Source: Prevotella sp. (GTDB lineage: Bacteria; Bacteroidota; Bacteroidia; Bacteroidales; Bacteroidaceae). Taken from it: a stretch of DNA of 64,000 nucleotides. Below the pieces are notes generated by a model, which had not been told where the DNA came from, did not search any database, and saw nothing but the letters and a program-made list of their open reading frames with translations. The stretch is from assembly GCA_017651265.1 (NCBI GenBank), contig JAGCDO010000047.1, positions 1 through 64,000 of the forward strand, read 5' to 3'. Positions 53,765 through 59,189 of the stretch are shown one piece after another (position 1 is the first letter of the stretch; each line of letters starts with the position of its first letter). The position numbers and the translations under genes are program-made.

Positions 53765-53796
53765 TTTGTTTTATTGAAGTAAAAACCGTACCTTTG
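53765..53796 (+). promoter_or_regulatory. Promoter of the RluA gene
   Basis: TTTG (53765-53768), 20 bases, TACCTTTG (53789-53796). The box overlaps the small palindrome TTTGGCTTCGCCAAA. Confidence 0.8.
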
Positions 53797-53814
53797 GCTT
53801 CGCCAAATGACTTC

Positions 53815-55671
53815 ATGAAACATTTCCATACCCTACAAACCAACATGGCACGACCGGAGCAGTTCAATGATCCGTTCGACTATGAGCCGCACCCGCTGAG
53901 CATCTTGGCGGCAGAAGAGGTGCAGCGGTATATCATGGAACACCCTGACATCAAGGAAGATGCCGATCAAGGGAAGATGTTCGGGGTGCTGGTGGTTTCT
54001 CTTCCGAGGAAGGACGAAGGAGGAAGGAGGAAGGAGATTGCCACTGAGATACAGAGTGAGGGTTCGGGAATTGGATTCTTGGCGGCGTATAGTGGATTGC
54101 TGGCTGGTAGGAACGACTGGGAGTGGTTTGTGCCGCCTGTGTTCGATGCACAAGATCCTAACGGGTACTTCAAGGTGCATGAGCGGGAGATAACCGAGAT
54201 GAACCACAAGGTGGAGTTGTTAGAGAAGGAATTGGATCATCTCTATCACCAACCCGACTACCTGAAGATGCTTCGTACCACGGAGGACCTGCTCAGTGAG
54301 CACGAGAAGAAGATGAAGACCGCTAAGGTGCTGCGCGACATGAAGCGTCTGCAACACAATATCTCGCCTGAAGAGCATGCGGAGCTGGTGCGAGAGAGTC
54401 AGTTCATGAAGGCCGAGATGCGGCGCATCAAGAAGCGCTGTGAAGAACTAGAACAGCCGTGGAAGGAAAAGGAAGAAACACTCAAGAATGAGATTACCCG
54501 ACTGAAAGTCCTCCGCAAGGAAGCATCTGACGACCTGCAGCGCTGGCTGTTTTCACAATACAAGATGCGGAACGCGCAGGGTGAAACCAAAGACCTCATC
54601 GAGATCTTCAACGATTATAACGGTCAGCTACCCCCAGCAGGGTCAGGTGACTGCTGTGCACCGAAACTGCTGCAGTATGCTTTTGAGAACAACCTCCAAC
54701 CCCTATGCATGGCCGAGTTCTGGTGGGGCGCTTCGCCCAAGATGGAGATCCGTCATCACCTGAACTATTATCCCGCCTGCAGAGGGAAGTGCCTCCCGAT
54801 TTTGGGGTGGATGTTATCGAGGAGGAAGGACGAAGGAGGAAGGACGAAGGAGATTACTTCTGAGATACAGGATTCGAAGGATTCTACACAAGATTCATAT
54901 ACACAAAACATTTCTCCTTCCTCCCTCCTCCTTCCTCCTTCCTCGAAAAATATCCTCTTCGAGGATCCCTACCTCCTCGTACTGAACAAACCCGCTGGGA
55001 TGCTGAGTGTGCCGGGGAAGACTGGGGAGGAGAGTGTGGAGAGCATGATGAGGGAATATCTGCATGACGATGTGAATCCCATCATCGTGCACCGACTCGA
55101 TATGGATACCTCAGGACTGATGGTGATTGCCAAGACCAAATGGACTTACACGGAGCTGCAAAAGCAGTTCCTGGAGCATCAGGTAGAGAAAACATACGTG
55201 GCCCTATTAGAACACATGCCCGAAGGGAAACCGCTCAAAGGCACCATCTCCCTTCCCCTTCGACCGGATATCTACGATCGTCCGCGACAGCTGGTGGATT
55301 GGGAGAATGGAAAGGAAGCGATCACAGATTATTATATTACGAGGAAGGAGGAAGGACGAAGGAGGAAGGAGATTACTTCTGAGATTCTGGATTCAAAGAA
55401 TTCTGTTCAGGACACATGTACCCAGTGCATTTCTCCTTCCTCCTTCGTCCTTCCTCCTTCCTCGATAAAAATTTTCCTCCGCCCCCAAACAGGGCGGACC
55501 CACCAACTGCGCGTGCACTGCGCTCATCAAGAAGGATTAGGGGTACCGATTGTGGGGGATGCACTCTATGGACATCGGGCCGACCGCCTTTATCTGCATG
55601 CCGAGACGCTGTCGTTCATTCATCCCAAGAGTGGGGAGCGCCTGCAATTCCACTGTCCTGCTCCCTTCTGA
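53815..55671 (+). CDS. RluA-family RNA pseudouridine synthase with three in-frame repeat insertions
   Basis: Isomerises uridine to pseudouridine in rRNA or tRNA. 618 residues from the ATG at 53815. An N-terminal Bacteroidetes-specific part ('GFLAAYSGLLAGRNDWEWFV') and a coiled coil (about 120-250) precede the synthase domain: 'LVLNKPAGMLSVPGK', catalytic HRLDMDTSGL (about 426-435) and 'TGRTHQLRVH' (about 560-569). Three inserts interrupt it: about residues 65-82 (RKDEGGRRKEIATEIQ), about 335-377 (RRKDEGGRTKEITSEIQ..) and about 509-550 (RKEEGRRRKEITSEIL..). Each is encoded by a GGAAGGA-type element and keeps the frame. Catalytic motifs are intact, so the enzyme is probably active. Confidence 0.92.
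   Translation: MKHFHTLQTNMARPEQFNDPFDYEPHPLSILAAEEVQRYIMEHPDIKEDADQGKMFGVLVVSLPRKDEGGRRKEIATEIQSEGSGIGFLAAYSGLLAGRNDWEWFVPPVFDAQDPNGYFKVHEREITEMNHKVELLEKELDHLYHQPDYLKMLRTTEDLLSEHEKKMKTAKVLRDMKRLQHNISPEEHAELVRESQFMKAEMRRIKKRCEELEQPWKEKEETLKNEITRLKVLRKEASDDLQRWLFSQYKMRNAQGETKDLIEIFNDYNGQLPPAGSGDCCAPKLLQYAFENNLQPLCMAEFWWGASPKMEIRHHLNYYPACRGKCLPILGWMLSRRKDEGGRTKEITSEIQDSKDSTQDSYTQNISPSSLLLPPSSKNILFEDPYLLVLNKPAGMLSVPGKTGEESVESMMREYLHDDVNPIIVHRLDMDTSGLMVIAKTKWTYTELQKQFLEHQVEKTYVALLEHMPEGKPLKGTISLPLRPDIYDRPRQLVDWENGKEAITDYYITRKEEGRRRKEITSEILDSKNSVQDTCTQCISPSSFVLPPSSIKIFLRPQTGRTHQLRVHCAHQEGLGVPIVGDALYGHRADRLYLHAETLSFIHPKSGERLQFHCPAPF
54005..54060. repeat. GGAAGGA element, half copy, inside the RluA gene
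   Basis: CGAGGAAGGACGAAGGAGGA then AGGAGGAAGGAGA (54005-54037), followed by TTGCCACTGAGATACAG, which matches the start of the loop in the two full copies. The pyrimidine arm is missing. Confidence 0.85.
54818..54945. repeat. GGAAGGA palindromic element, full copy 1, inside the RluA gene
   Basis: 128 bases. Purine arm 54818-54853, loop beginning TTACTTCTGAGATACAGGAT, pyrimidine arm 54913-54945. The arms are complementary with a few mismatches. Read in frame as about 43 residues ending SPSSLLLPPSSK. Confidence 0.9.
55340..55464. repeat. GGAAGGA palindromic element, full copy 2, with a perfect 33-base inverted repeat
   Basis: 125 bases. Arm 55340-55372 (CGAGGAAGGAGGAAGGACGA.. GGAAGGAGA) is exactly the reverse complement of 55432-55464, with a 59-base loop starting TTACTTCTGAGATTCTGGAT. 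It is three bases shorter than the other full copy and is read as 42 residues in the same frame. Confidence 0.93.
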
Positions 55672-55792
55672 CGGGACAGTTTCTCTTCCGACAAGGTCTT
55701 AATATGTTCAGATTGTGTCAATATTGAAGAAATCCTTGTCAAAATGAGAAGAAAGTTTCATGGTCTCGAAAAAAAGTGTTTCCTTTGCACCC

Positions 55793-56755
55793 ATGAAGCA
55801 GAACAACCAGCCTCTCATATTAACAATCACCGGTTCCGACGGCACTGGTGGCTCCGGGGTGCAGGCAGACATCAAGACCATCACCAGTCTGGGTGGCTAT
55901 GCCGTTTCTGTCGTTACCTCGGTCACCATGCAGAACACATTGGGTATCCAGGAGTTTTACGACCTGCCCTGCGAGATTATCGCCAGACAGATCGAGGCCA
56001 TCATGGATGATGTGGTGCCCGAAGCAGTGAAGATTGGAATGCTGAGGAACGTGGAGACGGTGGAGGTGGTGACCCGATTGATTGAGAAATACCACCCGCA
56101 GTATATCGTCTATGATCCCGTCGTCACGACCGTTCGCGGTGAGCAGCTCATGAGTGACGAGGTGGTGAAAGCCATTGCCGAGCATCTGGTCCCTCTGTGC
56201 CATGTCATTACCCGTCGCGGAGCCGATGAGGTGGTAGTGACTGCCGGTGGACGATCGTACCCGTTACCACAGCTCACCCATGCAAACAGTCATGGTCTGG
56301 GCGGTGCGCTCTCCTCAGCCATTGCCACCTATATGGCACAAGGTAACGGTTTTGAGGAAGCCATTCTGCAAGCCAACAGCTACGTGAACCGTCAGGTGGC
56401 CTACATCAGTAACCTCCAAGGCAGGAGCAGTGAGCTGTACAACGAATTCCTGAGTGAGCTCACCCTTCACCATGCCACCAATCGCGATGTCCATTTCTAT
56501 GCCGATATGCTGAATGTCAGTGCCCGCTACCTGGCTCAGGTCACCAAGCGCATTACAGGACAGTCGCCCAAGATGATTATCGACGAGTACCTGCTGAAGG
56601 AAATCAAGCTTTCCCTGATCAATACGAAAAAGTGCATTCAAGAGGTGGCCTATCAATACGGGTTCCACTCCCAGGCACAGTTCACGAAGTTCTTCAAGAA
56701 GCTCACAGGAGAGAATCCAACCCAGTTCCGTCACAAACACAGAAGAATAGAATAA
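55793..56755 (+). CDS. ThiD-like pseudokinase fused to an AraC-type DNA-binding domain, probable B6-locus regulator
   Basis: 320 residues. Residues 8-215 follow the HMP/pyridoxal kinase fold: TITGSDGTGGSGVQADIKTI (11-30) and SVTMQNT (43-49) keep the substrate-side residues. The catalytic loop, HGTGCTLSSA in the family, here reads HGLGGALSSA (167-176), with the catalytic Cys/Asp position changed to Gly. Between CHVIT (136-140) and VVVTAGG (147-153) about 40-50 residues of the nucleotide-binding part are missing. Residues 225-316 are an AraC/HTH_18 domain ('CIQEVAYQYGFHSQAQFTKF'). Position directly before pdxS and pdxT suggests a B6-vitamer-responsive activator. The start ATG is five bases after TTCCTTTG. 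Confidence 0.85.
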   Translation: MKQNNQPLILTITGSDGTGGSGVQADIKTITSLGGYAVSVVTSVTMQNTLGIQEFYDLPCEIIARQIEAIMDDVVPEAVKIGMLRNVETVEVVTRLIEKYHPQYIVYDPVVTTVRGEQLMSDEVVKAIAEHLVPLCHVITRRGADEVVVTAGGRSYPLPQLTHANSHGLGGALSSAIATYMAQGNGFEEAILQANSYVNRQVAYISNLQGRSSELYNEFLSELTLHHATNRDVHFYADMLNVSARYLAQVTKRITGQSPKMIIDEYLLKEIKLSLINTKKCIQEVAYQYGFHSQAQFTKFFKKLTGENPTQFRHKHRRIE

Positions 56756-56783: not shown

Positions 56784-57659
56784 ATGAAAGAGAACAGACA
56801 AACCCTGAACCGCAACCTGGCACAGATGCTCAAGGGCGGTGTGATTATGGACGTGACAACACCCGAACAGGCCCGTATCGCCGAGGCTGCCGGAGCCTGT
56901 GCCGTGATGGCCTTAGAGCGTATCCCCGCGGATATCCGTGCCGCTGGCGGTGTGTCCCGTATGAGCGACCCGAAGATGATCCGTGGTATCCAGGAGGCTG
57001 TCACCATCCCCGTTATGGCCAAATGCCGCATCGGTCATTTTGCCGAGGCCCAGATCCTGCAGGCCATCGAGATTGATTATATCGATGAGAGTGAGGTCTT
57101 GTCACCGGCAGATGATGTGTATCATATCGACAAGACCCAGTTTGAGGTGCCGTTCGTTTGTGGGGCCAAGGACTTAGGTGAGGCTTTGCGTCGCATTGCC
57201 GAAGGTGCCACGATGATACGCACCAAGGGGGAGCCAGGAACAGGTGACATCATCCAGGCGGTGCGCCACATGCGGATGATGCAGAGTGAGATTCGCCGAC
57301 TGGTGAGCATGAGTGAGGATGAACTGTATGAGGCAGCCAAGCAGTTGCGTGCCCCCTACGATCTGGTCAAATTCGTACATGAAAACGGTAAGCTGCCCGT
57401 AGTGAACTTCGCCGCCGGCGGTGTGGCCACACCAGCCGATGCAGCCCTGATGATGCAGTTGGGTGCCGAGGGAGTGTTCGTGGGATCAGGCATCTTCAAG
57501 AGCGGCAACCCCGCCAAGCGGGCTCAGGCCATCGTGAAGGCCGTTACCAACTACCGCGATGCGAAACTGTTGGCAGAGCTGTCGGAAGATCTCGGAGAGG
57601 CCATGGTGGGCATCAACGAGAGTGAGATCCAGCTGTTGATGGCTGAAAGAGGAAAGTGA
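56784..57659 (+). CDS. pdxS: Pyridoxal 5'-phosphate synthase, synthase subunit
   Basis: 291 residues. Makes PLP from ribose 5-phosphate, glyceraldehyde 3-phosphate and ammonia. The family sequence is very conserved: [20 protein letters not shown] (about 14-33), '[20 protein letters not shown]' (about 40-59), MAKCRIGH with the first catalytic Lys (about 78-85), '[10 protein letters not shown]' and TKGEPGTG with the second Lys (about 152-159). It is 28 bases after the fusion gene, where a 25-base sequence is duplicated (56731-56783), and one base before pdxT. Confidence 0.98.
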
Positions 57660-57660
57660 G

Positions 57661-58215
57661 ATGAGGATAGCGGTATTGGCATTACAAGGGGCATTTGCGG
57701 AACATGAGCAGATGCTGGAACGCATCGGTGTGGACTATTTCGAGGTGAGACAGGCAGCCGACTGGCAACAGCCGAAGGATGGTCTGATCCTTCCCGGTGG
57801 GGAGAGCACCACGATGATGAAGCTACTGTATGATCTGGGGTTGTATCACGACATCCAGCAAGCCATACAAGAGGGGCTGCCCGTCTTCGGCACCTGTGCT
57901 GGTCTTATCCTACTCGACCGCTCCCACTTAGGAACCATGGACATCGTGGCACGCCGCAATGCCTACGGACGACAATTGGGCAGCTTTCACACACTGGCAC
58001 CGTTCAAAGGGATTCTCGATGAAGTGCCCATGACCTTCATCCGTGCACCCTATATCCAAGAGACAGGAGAGGAGGTGGAGGTGCTGGCAGAGGTTGATCA
58101 CCATATCGTGGCAGCACGACAAGACCATCAGCTCGTCACCGCCTTCCATCCCGAACTCGATGAGGATCCCCGACTCCACCAGTACTTTATCAGCATGGTA
58201 CATGATTCCGTTTAA
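57661..58215 (+). CDS. pdxT: Pyridoxal 5'-phosphate synthase, glutaminase subunit
   Basis: 184 residues of a class I glutaminase that feeds ammonia to PdxS. It has the [10 protein letters not shown]-terminus (7-15), LPGGEST (44-50), the nucleophile in [10 protein letters not shown] (Cys79), and the His-Glu pair in [14 protein letters not shown] (about 160-173). It lies one base after the pdxS stop codon, so translation is coupled. Confidence 0.97.
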
Positions 58216-58370: not shown

Positions 58371-59189
58371 ATGGCAAAAAAGCAGATATTATTGATCAAC
58401 GACCTTGCCGGCTATGGTAAGGTGGCCACGGCAGCGATGCTTCCCATCCTGTCGTATATGGGACATCCTGTGTATAACCTCCCTACAGCATTGGTATCGA
58501 ACACCCTCGACTATGGGAAGTTCAATATCATGGACACCACGGATTATATAAAAGGTGTATTCCCGGTGTGGAAGGAACTTGGTTTCAGTTTCGATGCTAT
58601 TGCCACTGGATTCATTGCCAGTGAGCGACAGGCACAGATTGTGGCTGCCTACTGTCGTGAGCAAGCTGCCAACGGTACGGTGATCTTCGTTGATCCCATC
58701 ATGGGTGACGAGGGAAAGCTGTATAATGGTGTTACGGAAGCGGCCGTGCAGAGCATGCGCGAGATGATCAGTGTGGCCCATCTGATTTTCCCCAACTACA
58801 CCGAGGCCTGCTACCTTACCGACACCCCTTATCGGAAAGAAGGCGTGAACTGGCAGGAGGCCAAGGAACTGCTTGACAAGCTGCGCCAATTAGGAACAAA
58901 GTCGGCCTTGATCACCAGTCTGATGGTTGATGGGCAATGTGCGGTGGTGGGCTATAACCACTTCATCGGCGAGTATTTCCTACTGCCCTATACCGAGATC
59001 CCCGTCCACTTCCCCGGTACCGGCGATATGTTCTCAGCCATTCTCATCGGTCATCTGCTCAACGACGAGCCGTTGAAACCCAGTACCCGTATTGCCATGG
59101 ACGCTCTCTATCGTCTGATTGAGGTAAACAAAGACAATGAGGACAAGAACAGGGGTATCCCCATCGAGAACTGGCTCTCACTCCTTTGA
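58371..59189 (+). CDS. Pyridoxal/pyridoxine kinase
   Basis: 272 residues of the PdxK/PdxY ribokinase-like group, phosphorylating B6 vitamers. The N-terminus ILLINDLAGYGKVATAAMLP (5-24) and 'LPTALVSNTLDYGKF' match the bacterial pyridoxamine kinase group, 'FVDPIMGDEGKLYNG' (about 104-118) and the catalytic GTGDMFSA (about 223-230) are intact. In contrast with the ThiD-like fusion at 55793, this protein keeps the catalytic Asp. Its stop codon TGA falls inside a CTTTGACCAAATCCCTTTGA array. Confidence 0.92.
   Translation: MAKKQILLINDLAGYGKVATAAMLPILSYMGHPVYNLPTALVSNTLDYGKFNIMDTTDYIKGVFPVWKELGFSFDAIATGFIASERQAQIVAAYCREQAANGTVIFVDPIMGDEGKLYNGVTEAAVQSMREMISVAHLIFPNYTEACYLTDTPYRKEGVNWQEAKELLDKLRQLGTKSALITSLMVDGQCAVVGYNHFIGEYFLLPYTEIPVHFPGTGDMFSAILIGHLLNDEPLKPSTRIAMDALYRLIEVNKDNEDKNRGIPIENWLSLL

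Follow-up and report, generated by a model that had tools for sequence, protein, structure and literature searches.

Archaeal ThiR (HTH-ThiN) and RbkR (HTH-riboflavin kinase), together with the ROK repressors, are examples of regulators in which vitamin or sugar enzyme folds have been recruited as sensors. In the AraC/XylS family, a direct-repeat site with halves about two helical turns apart adjoins the promoter, and the activators of this family have two direct half-sites next to the promoter.

The regulation of pdxST has been described for PdxR: the apo form activates pdxST and PLP acts as an anti-activator (PMC5320631). MocR proteins combine a GntR-family DNA-binding domain with an aminotransferase-like domain, whereas the protein described below combines a ThiD-like domain with a C-terminal AraC HTH. 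No description of a ThiD-AraC fusion or of its operator was found among the titles and abstract openings of the open-access literature searched. The present analysis of a 64,000-nt stretch of Prevotella sp. DNA (hereafter, the window) and of related genomes suggests that in Prevotella and related bacteria an enzyme has been turned into a vitamin sensor, which seemingly switches on the genes of B6 synthesis.

Architecture of the regulator and its locus

The regulator and the adjacent features are listed in Table 1. The preferred start is ATG 55793; the alternative in-frame ATG 55760 is located 5' of the -7-like TTTG. The only Pfam matches of the protein are Phos_pyr_kin, HTH_18, and HTH_AraC. 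Phos_pyr_kin (E 3.3e-49) is represented by profile positions 1-124 and about 185-235 of 246, and the C-terminal HTH_18 characteristic of AraC/XylS proteins is matched at E 4.4e-21, with 75.4 bits vs. a cut-off of 33.6. The score with TIGR00097, the NCBIfam model of HMP-P kinase, is 166.5 bits, below the cut-off of 204.95 expected of a ThiD; the model of ThiD-like pyridoxal kinase, PRK12412, gives 93.9 bits. Pfam finds neither the GntR winged HTH nor the aminotransferase-like domain that together characterize PdxR/MocR. Among solved structures, ThiD (PDB 7r8y) is matched at E 2.4e-42 (phmmer), and every match in the structure search spans either the kinase or the HTH part, none spanning both. 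Judging by these profiles, the regulator belongs to the AraC family by its HTH and is ThiD-derived, yet it is not a ThiD.

Table 1. Features of the regulator locus in the window (positions are those of the whole stretch)
Feature	Position	Strand	Basis or remark
Distal operator half-site TGTGTCAATATTGAAGA	55714..55730	+	direct repeat with an offset of 21 bp to the proximal half
Proximal operator half-site TCCTTGTCAAAATGAGAAG	55733..55751	+	motif score
TTTG of the -7-like element TTTCCTTTGCA	55784..55787	+	32 nt past the motif core; near-leaderless start
Regulator, ThiD-derived pseudokinase + AraC HTH, 320 aa	55793..56755	+	ORF, Pfam, NCBIfam, structure search, orthologues
Phos_pyr_kin-like domain	55838..56407	+	Pfam pieces 55838-56212 and 56255-56407; ATP-side segment absent in between
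Degenerate anion-hole loop HGLGGA	56291..56308	+	residues 167-172; HGTGCT or HGSGCT in most ThiDs
AraC-type double HTH (HTH_18)	56498..56734	+	Pfam, profile 1-79 of 80
pdxS, PLP synthase lyase subunit	56784..57659	+	Pfam, NCBIfam
pdxT, PLP synthase glutaminase subunit	57661..58215	+	Pfam, NCBIfam
pdxK-type pyridoxamine kinase (PRK07105)	58371..59189	+	start taken at the ATG 155 nt past pdxT

Copies of the regulator with 96-97% identity are present in three Prevotella/Prevotellaceae MAGs, whose isolate names contain RUG, which we take to stand for rumen, and orthologues were found throughout the genus (120 genomes). Fifteen plasmid records matched the protein, none covering 80% of it. A plain pseudogene was considered and rejected, because the frame is open and both the HTH and the operator are conserved.

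At the Rfam gathering thresholds, the whole window contains only one match, a tRNA, and no riboswitch. The gene for an RluA-family pseudouridine synthase (53794-55671) carries copies of a palindromic CCTTCCTCCTTCGTCC-type repeat within its open frame, at 53997-54050, 54813-54960, and 55332-55479. They form two 139-nt copies that are 82% alike and three 54-nt copies, and are translated as RRKEEGGRRKE...SPSSFLLPPSS. The 28-nt core of this repeat has 127 matches with at most three mismatches in its own genome, 35 of them listed as exact; the reversed-pattern control gave 113 matches, probably because the repeat is simple and nearly symmetric, and hence is a weak control. The element resembles a dispersed repeat that has entered the RluA-family gene in frame.

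Loss of the active site and retention of the substrate side

We aligned 64 fusions with 16 intact ThiDs from Bacteroidota. One frame with an internal loss (L097) and one fragment (L098) were left out of the fusions, L171 and L172, being ThiDs, were counted with the latter, L173 lacks the kinase part, and seven of the 23 ThiD rows, shorter than 200 aa, were excluded from both the tree and the residue table. The HG of the anion-hole loop is at trimmed position 160 in the window protein and at positions 204-217 in the ThiDs, and thus the window protein lacks about 45 ATP-side residues; the segment absent from it is the one that carries TPN..EA .. KGGH in ThiDs. Among the fusions, 44 of 64 are truncated on the ATP side, the deletion varying in extent, and 20 are of full length (HG at trimmed position of at least 198). 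The loop Cys of the ThiD signature HG[TS]GC is present in all 16 canonical ThiDs vs. none of the 64 fusions. Its position is occupied by Gly (14) or Ser (6) in the full-length fusions and by Asn (41), Gly (2), or Ser (1) in the truncated ones. A sequencing error or a loop defect confined to this MAG was considered and rejected, as the Cys is missing from all aligned fusions.

Loss of the Cys alone is no proof that catalysis is lost. The missing Cys and the missing ATP side, taken together, make a working kinase very unlikely. Some fusions could nevertheless be imagined as both enzymes and regulators that still phosphorylate a vitamer, similar to BirA and NadR, which are bifunctional enzyme-regulators; the 20 full-length fusions, in which NEAE and RGGH remnants are retained by some proteins, could be read in this way. 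We consider this highly improbable, given that none of these 20 proteins has the loop Cys, that Thr140 of the TPN motif is retained by only two of them, and that the window protein has lost about 45 residues of the ATP side. The earlier note on this DNA had described a degenerate loop, a loss of about 40-50 residues of the nucleotide-binding part, and a complete AraC HTH followed by pdxS, pdxT, and a kinase gene, an architecture confirmed by Pfam, the alignment, and the neighboring genes. Its proposal that the domain no longer phosphorylates gains strong comparative support from the family-wide loss of the Cys and the deletion in 44 of 64 proteins. The note named as contrary evidence orthologues that keep the GTGC loop and are encoded apart from pdxST. 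When these were looked for, the proposal was not refuted: some orthologues are indeed unlinked, but no orthologue has a normal loop.

The substrate side has been preserved to a much larger extent. Residues G14, D16, G22, D26, G34, T42, Q66, G82, H167, and G168 are invariant across the 80 rows, whereas Q24, Q47, and K80 are each present in at least 62 of the 64 fusions. Thus, all five substrate-side residues expected of a ThiD (D16, Q24, D26, Q47, and K80 in the window numbering) are found in the window protein, each being present in at least 62 fusions. Some drift is observed: M83 is replaced by Leu in 27 of 64 fusions, and 27 of 64 have a residue other than Asp at D108. Such drift of pocket positions, the differing extent of the ATP-side deletion, and the fact that ThiD-family enzymes are multimeric would suit a kinase remnant that has become a dimerization scaffold or a protein-contact domain and binds no small molecule, the factor either keeping pdxST on or being itself controlled by another protein. 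We regard this explanation as unlikely, since D16, Q24, D26, T42, Q47, K80, and the loop HG are kept across deep branches, and the fixation of Asn, which replaces the old Cys in 41 of the 44 truncated proteins, looks like the mark of a retained pocket.

Co-occurrence with pdxS

In the genus sample, 69 of the 120 genomes have a match at E <= 1e-20, canonical ThiDs being among these. The fusion is present in 55 genomes (those with both kinase and HTH matches, plus G027, which has a kinase fragment) and pdxS in 57. Both occur in 54 genomes, the fusion alone in one (G027), pdxS alone in three (G093, G101, and G109), and neither in 62 (Fisher p 2.9e-29, ignoring relatedness). Genome G101 contains pieces of the fusion HTH (50% identity, E 7e-9), pdxS, and pdxT head to tail inside about 350 nt, a decayed or misassembled operon; the pdxS loci of G093 and G109 (L105 and L106) have no fusion match. 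Within the 56 loci, pdxS is downstream on the same strand in 48, in 44 of them at most 250 nt away as measured between BLAST match starts. In two loci pdxTS is downstream on the opposite strand, and in six no pdxS was found within the stretch examined, in some of which the contig ends.

The order sample (393 genomes) added ten fusions (L161-L170) in nine further genomes. Here pdxS is above the cut-off in 19 genomes, eight of them with the fusion (the window's own included) and 11 with no detected fusion. By eye, the genes beside pdxS in nine of these 11 genomes, and in G093 and G109, include no similar fusion. In one locus (L189) an Lrp-type gene follows pdxT. Two genomes of one other genus, G421 and G484, have the fusion and the operator with no pdxS detected, and their regulator (L168 and L169) may have another target or be a remnant. 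In both, it follows a NadB-like gene, named by eye. Genome G137 encodes a full-length fusion near pdxST (L162) and a truncated one on a long branch elsewhere on the contig (L163). In the phylum sample (395 genomes), no further fusion was found at E <= 1e-80, a cut-off at which truncated forms are missed, and the only row, G377, is a ThiD. All these counts may omit some fusions, as up to 18 candidates per genome were scored in the genus sample and up to five in the order sample, and many of the assemblies are incomplete or fragmented, so that absences are possibly gaps. In these samples, the fusion is a Bacteroidales family.

The candidate operator

The motif matrix was built from 31 loci with 27 distinct sites; it contains about 22 bits, with the consensus AGTTTTCTTTGTCAAAATGGGAACAA. 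The window site has the best score in the 64 kb (23.2, or 20.3 when left out of the training), the next match scoring 10.6 without the spacing to TTTG. The TTTG in the window is part of an element that resembles the Bacteroidetes -7 consensus. The layout is that expected of an AraC/XylS operator, a 21-bp direct repeat beside the promoter, 32-33 nt from TTTG. A hand-made half-site pattern applied to the window found the distal half only.

In about 740 kb, matches with scores of at least 14 comprise 49 sites that precede the regulator (41) or pdxS (8) by no more than 520 nt and nine sites elsewhere. TTTG is located 31-34 nt downstream of 46 of the 49 target-promoter matches vs. two of the nine others, and among the sites with both motif and TTTG that score at least 16 (n=46), 39 have a spacing of 32 and seven a spacing of 33. 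One of the latter set of 46, the match in L090, is downstream of a kinase gene and not at a target promoter, and was taken as chance. As most of the scored sites belong to the training set, more independent support comes from the repeat and from the held-out loci. The self-similarity of half-sites at offset 21 is 0.52 on average vs. 0.26 at other offsets (z 6.7, 42 distinct sites), and 16 of the 49 target matches, 15 with the TTTG spacing, come from loci that were not used in training. Six of these untrained matches are in other families (L161, L163, and L167-L170), five with the spacing.

The position of the site relative to the two genes varies. In L047, L062, L070, L072, and L097 it is between the regulator and pdxS, in L071 it precedes both genes, and in L161 it is at pdxS on the opposite strand. 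In L100 (genome G117) the motif precedes pdxS, which is separated by about 500 kb of the contig from a regulator that has no match. A weaker variant with the same spacing precedes pdxS in L048 and L099 (scores 9.0 and 10.8), and no motif at score 14 was found where pdxS lies apart in G017, G084, and G060 (L102-L104). The suggestion of the earlier note that the protein regulates pdxST gains strong comparative support from the near one-to-one co-occurrence and from an operator that accompanies the pdxST promoter even when the regulator is encoded apart.

No motif at score 14 was found in 20 of the 64 fusion loci, 14 of which are of full length (14/20). Hence, the old forms may use another operator. 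One full-length form without the common operator (L091) has a long inverted repeat upstream, GAAATTGTGATTACGTAATGG ... CCATTACATAATCACAATTTC, near-complementary by eye, which is possibly a different site or a terminator. The regulator promoter of L085/L086 has two copies of the motif, the second of which (score 18.9) precedes the first by 43 bp.

A larger regulon was considered, and strict patterns were applied to whole genomes. One of them has a single match in the window's genome, at the 55733..55751 site, and none in the reversed-pattern control. The other, which misses the window's own site (GAAG for GAAC), found 22 sites in the 120 genus genomes, 16 of them at the regulator/pdxST locus; the remaining six compare with five in the reversed-pattern controls. 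Hence, no second recurrent target was found in the 120 genomes by the strict pattern, although weaker sites of a further target may have escaped it. The strict-pattern counts fit a single-operon regulator of pdxST. With a loose pattern, G421 and G484 have ten and eight sites, respectively, vs. four controls in each, and the regulator's own site is the only exact match in either genome.

Ligand and proposed mechanism

Of the candidate ligands put forward in the earlier note, a B6 vitamer or HMP, the former is favored because the target operon is pdxST and the substrate side of the domain is kept. The same regulator with the same target could instead respond to HMP or HMP-P, tying B6 synthesis to the supply of the thiamine precursor. 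The domain is nearer to the models of HMP-P kinase than to PRK12412 (166.5 vs. 93.9 bits), and Q47 of the TxQN motif, whose Gln adjoins the pyrimidine in ThiD, is Gln in 62 of 64 fusions. At the same time, ThiC was found in 19 of the 55 fusion genomes and not detected in 36, with no association (p 0.15), and searches of the window's genome (94% complete) gave neither ThiC nor any canonical ThiD. The Phos_pyr_kin matches of this genome are the fusion, pdxK, and one match of 29 bits (Pfam cut-off 27); this match was rejected as a ThiD, its 519-aa frame being, by eye, an NAD(P)HX epimerase/dehydratase. For these reasons HMP is unlikely as a general signal, and the absence of a recurrent second target of the strict operator pattern also counts against a thiamine-linked ligand. 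We therefore consider an HMP(-P) sensor quite improbable; a B6 vitamer is the most likely ligand, with HMP less likely.

What the sequences show, namely the order of the domains, the missing catalytic features, the pairing with pdxST, and the operator with its spacing, is best combined in the following model. We infer that a dimer of the regulator would bind the two direct half-sites, spaced by 21 bp, immediately 5' of the pdxST promoter, which in the window would also be the promoter of the regulator itself. The bound regulator would most likely activate this promoter; activation is the likely sign because direct half-sites at this distance beside a promoter match the layout of AraC-family activators. 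The former HMP(-P) kinase domain, presumably unable to phosphorylate and retaining much of its substrate side, would most likely bind a B6 vitamer (PLP or pyridoxal), tuning DNA binding or activation. By analogy with PdxR, the fusion is expected to activate pdxST when B6 is scarce; when B6 is plentiful, pdxST would probably be switched off. In our judgment, the protein is probably a dedicated AraC-type regulator of pdxST that uses a dead HMP(-P) kinase as the sensor, most likely of a B6 vitamer, and probably acts as an activator. It is thus a candidate for dedicated control of B6 synthesis, with a defined operator, in Prevotella and other Bacteroidales.

Probable order of losses in the fusion family

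In a quick tree from which the ATP segment was left out, the canonical ThiDs form a single clade (support 100), and 16 of the 20 full-length fusions are on the ThiD side (support 85). The truncated state requires two changes on this tree, and one change is compatible with the starred branches. Since the full-length forms are on the ThiD side and the truncated ones appear derived, loss of catalysis probably preceded loss of the ATP side. Weak support (81) places the window protein with two full-length forms, a hint of a separate ATP-side deletion in its lineage.

One scenario that combines these observations starts with fusion to the AraC HTH and replacement of the catalytic Cys by Gly or Ser. 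The ATP side would then have been deleted and Asn fixed at the old Cys position (HGxxN), and the former anion hole would now grip the 5'-phosphate of PLP in place of the phosphates of ATP, yielding a B6-responsive activator. We offer this scenario tentatively, as plausible though on balance somewhat doubtful. If true, it would make the fusions a second class of PLP-sensing regulators of pdxST, evolved independently of the MocR-type PdxRs. The family also supplies intermediates, full-length dead, truncated, and nearly lost, for the evolution of an enzyme into a ligand sensor.

Comparison with known systems

The evident ancestor of the N-terminal domain is the HMP/HMP-P kinase ThiD (TIGR00097; PDB 7r8y and 1jxh). 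Unlike ThiD, the fusion is under the equivalog cut-off of TIGR00097 and lacks the loop Cys, and in the window protein the ATP side is missing. If fusions were read as HMP kinases by similarity, the use of thiamine precursors by gut and rumen bacteria would be wrongly predicted.

The fusion resembles AraC/XylS regulators in its complete HTH_18 and in the 21-bp direct-repeat site adjoining the promoter, comparable to I1-I2 of AraC, which is also a direct-repeat site beside the promoter. It differs from these regulators in that its sensor is a ThiD-derived kinase domain. ThiR, RbkR, and the ROK repressors differ from the fusion in fold, HTH type, and pathway. A functional parallel is found in PdxR/MocR, in which a former enzyme fold, an aminotransferase, serves as the B6 sensor that controls pdxST (PMC5320631); in the fusion, as we propose, a ThiD-like kinase would have this role.
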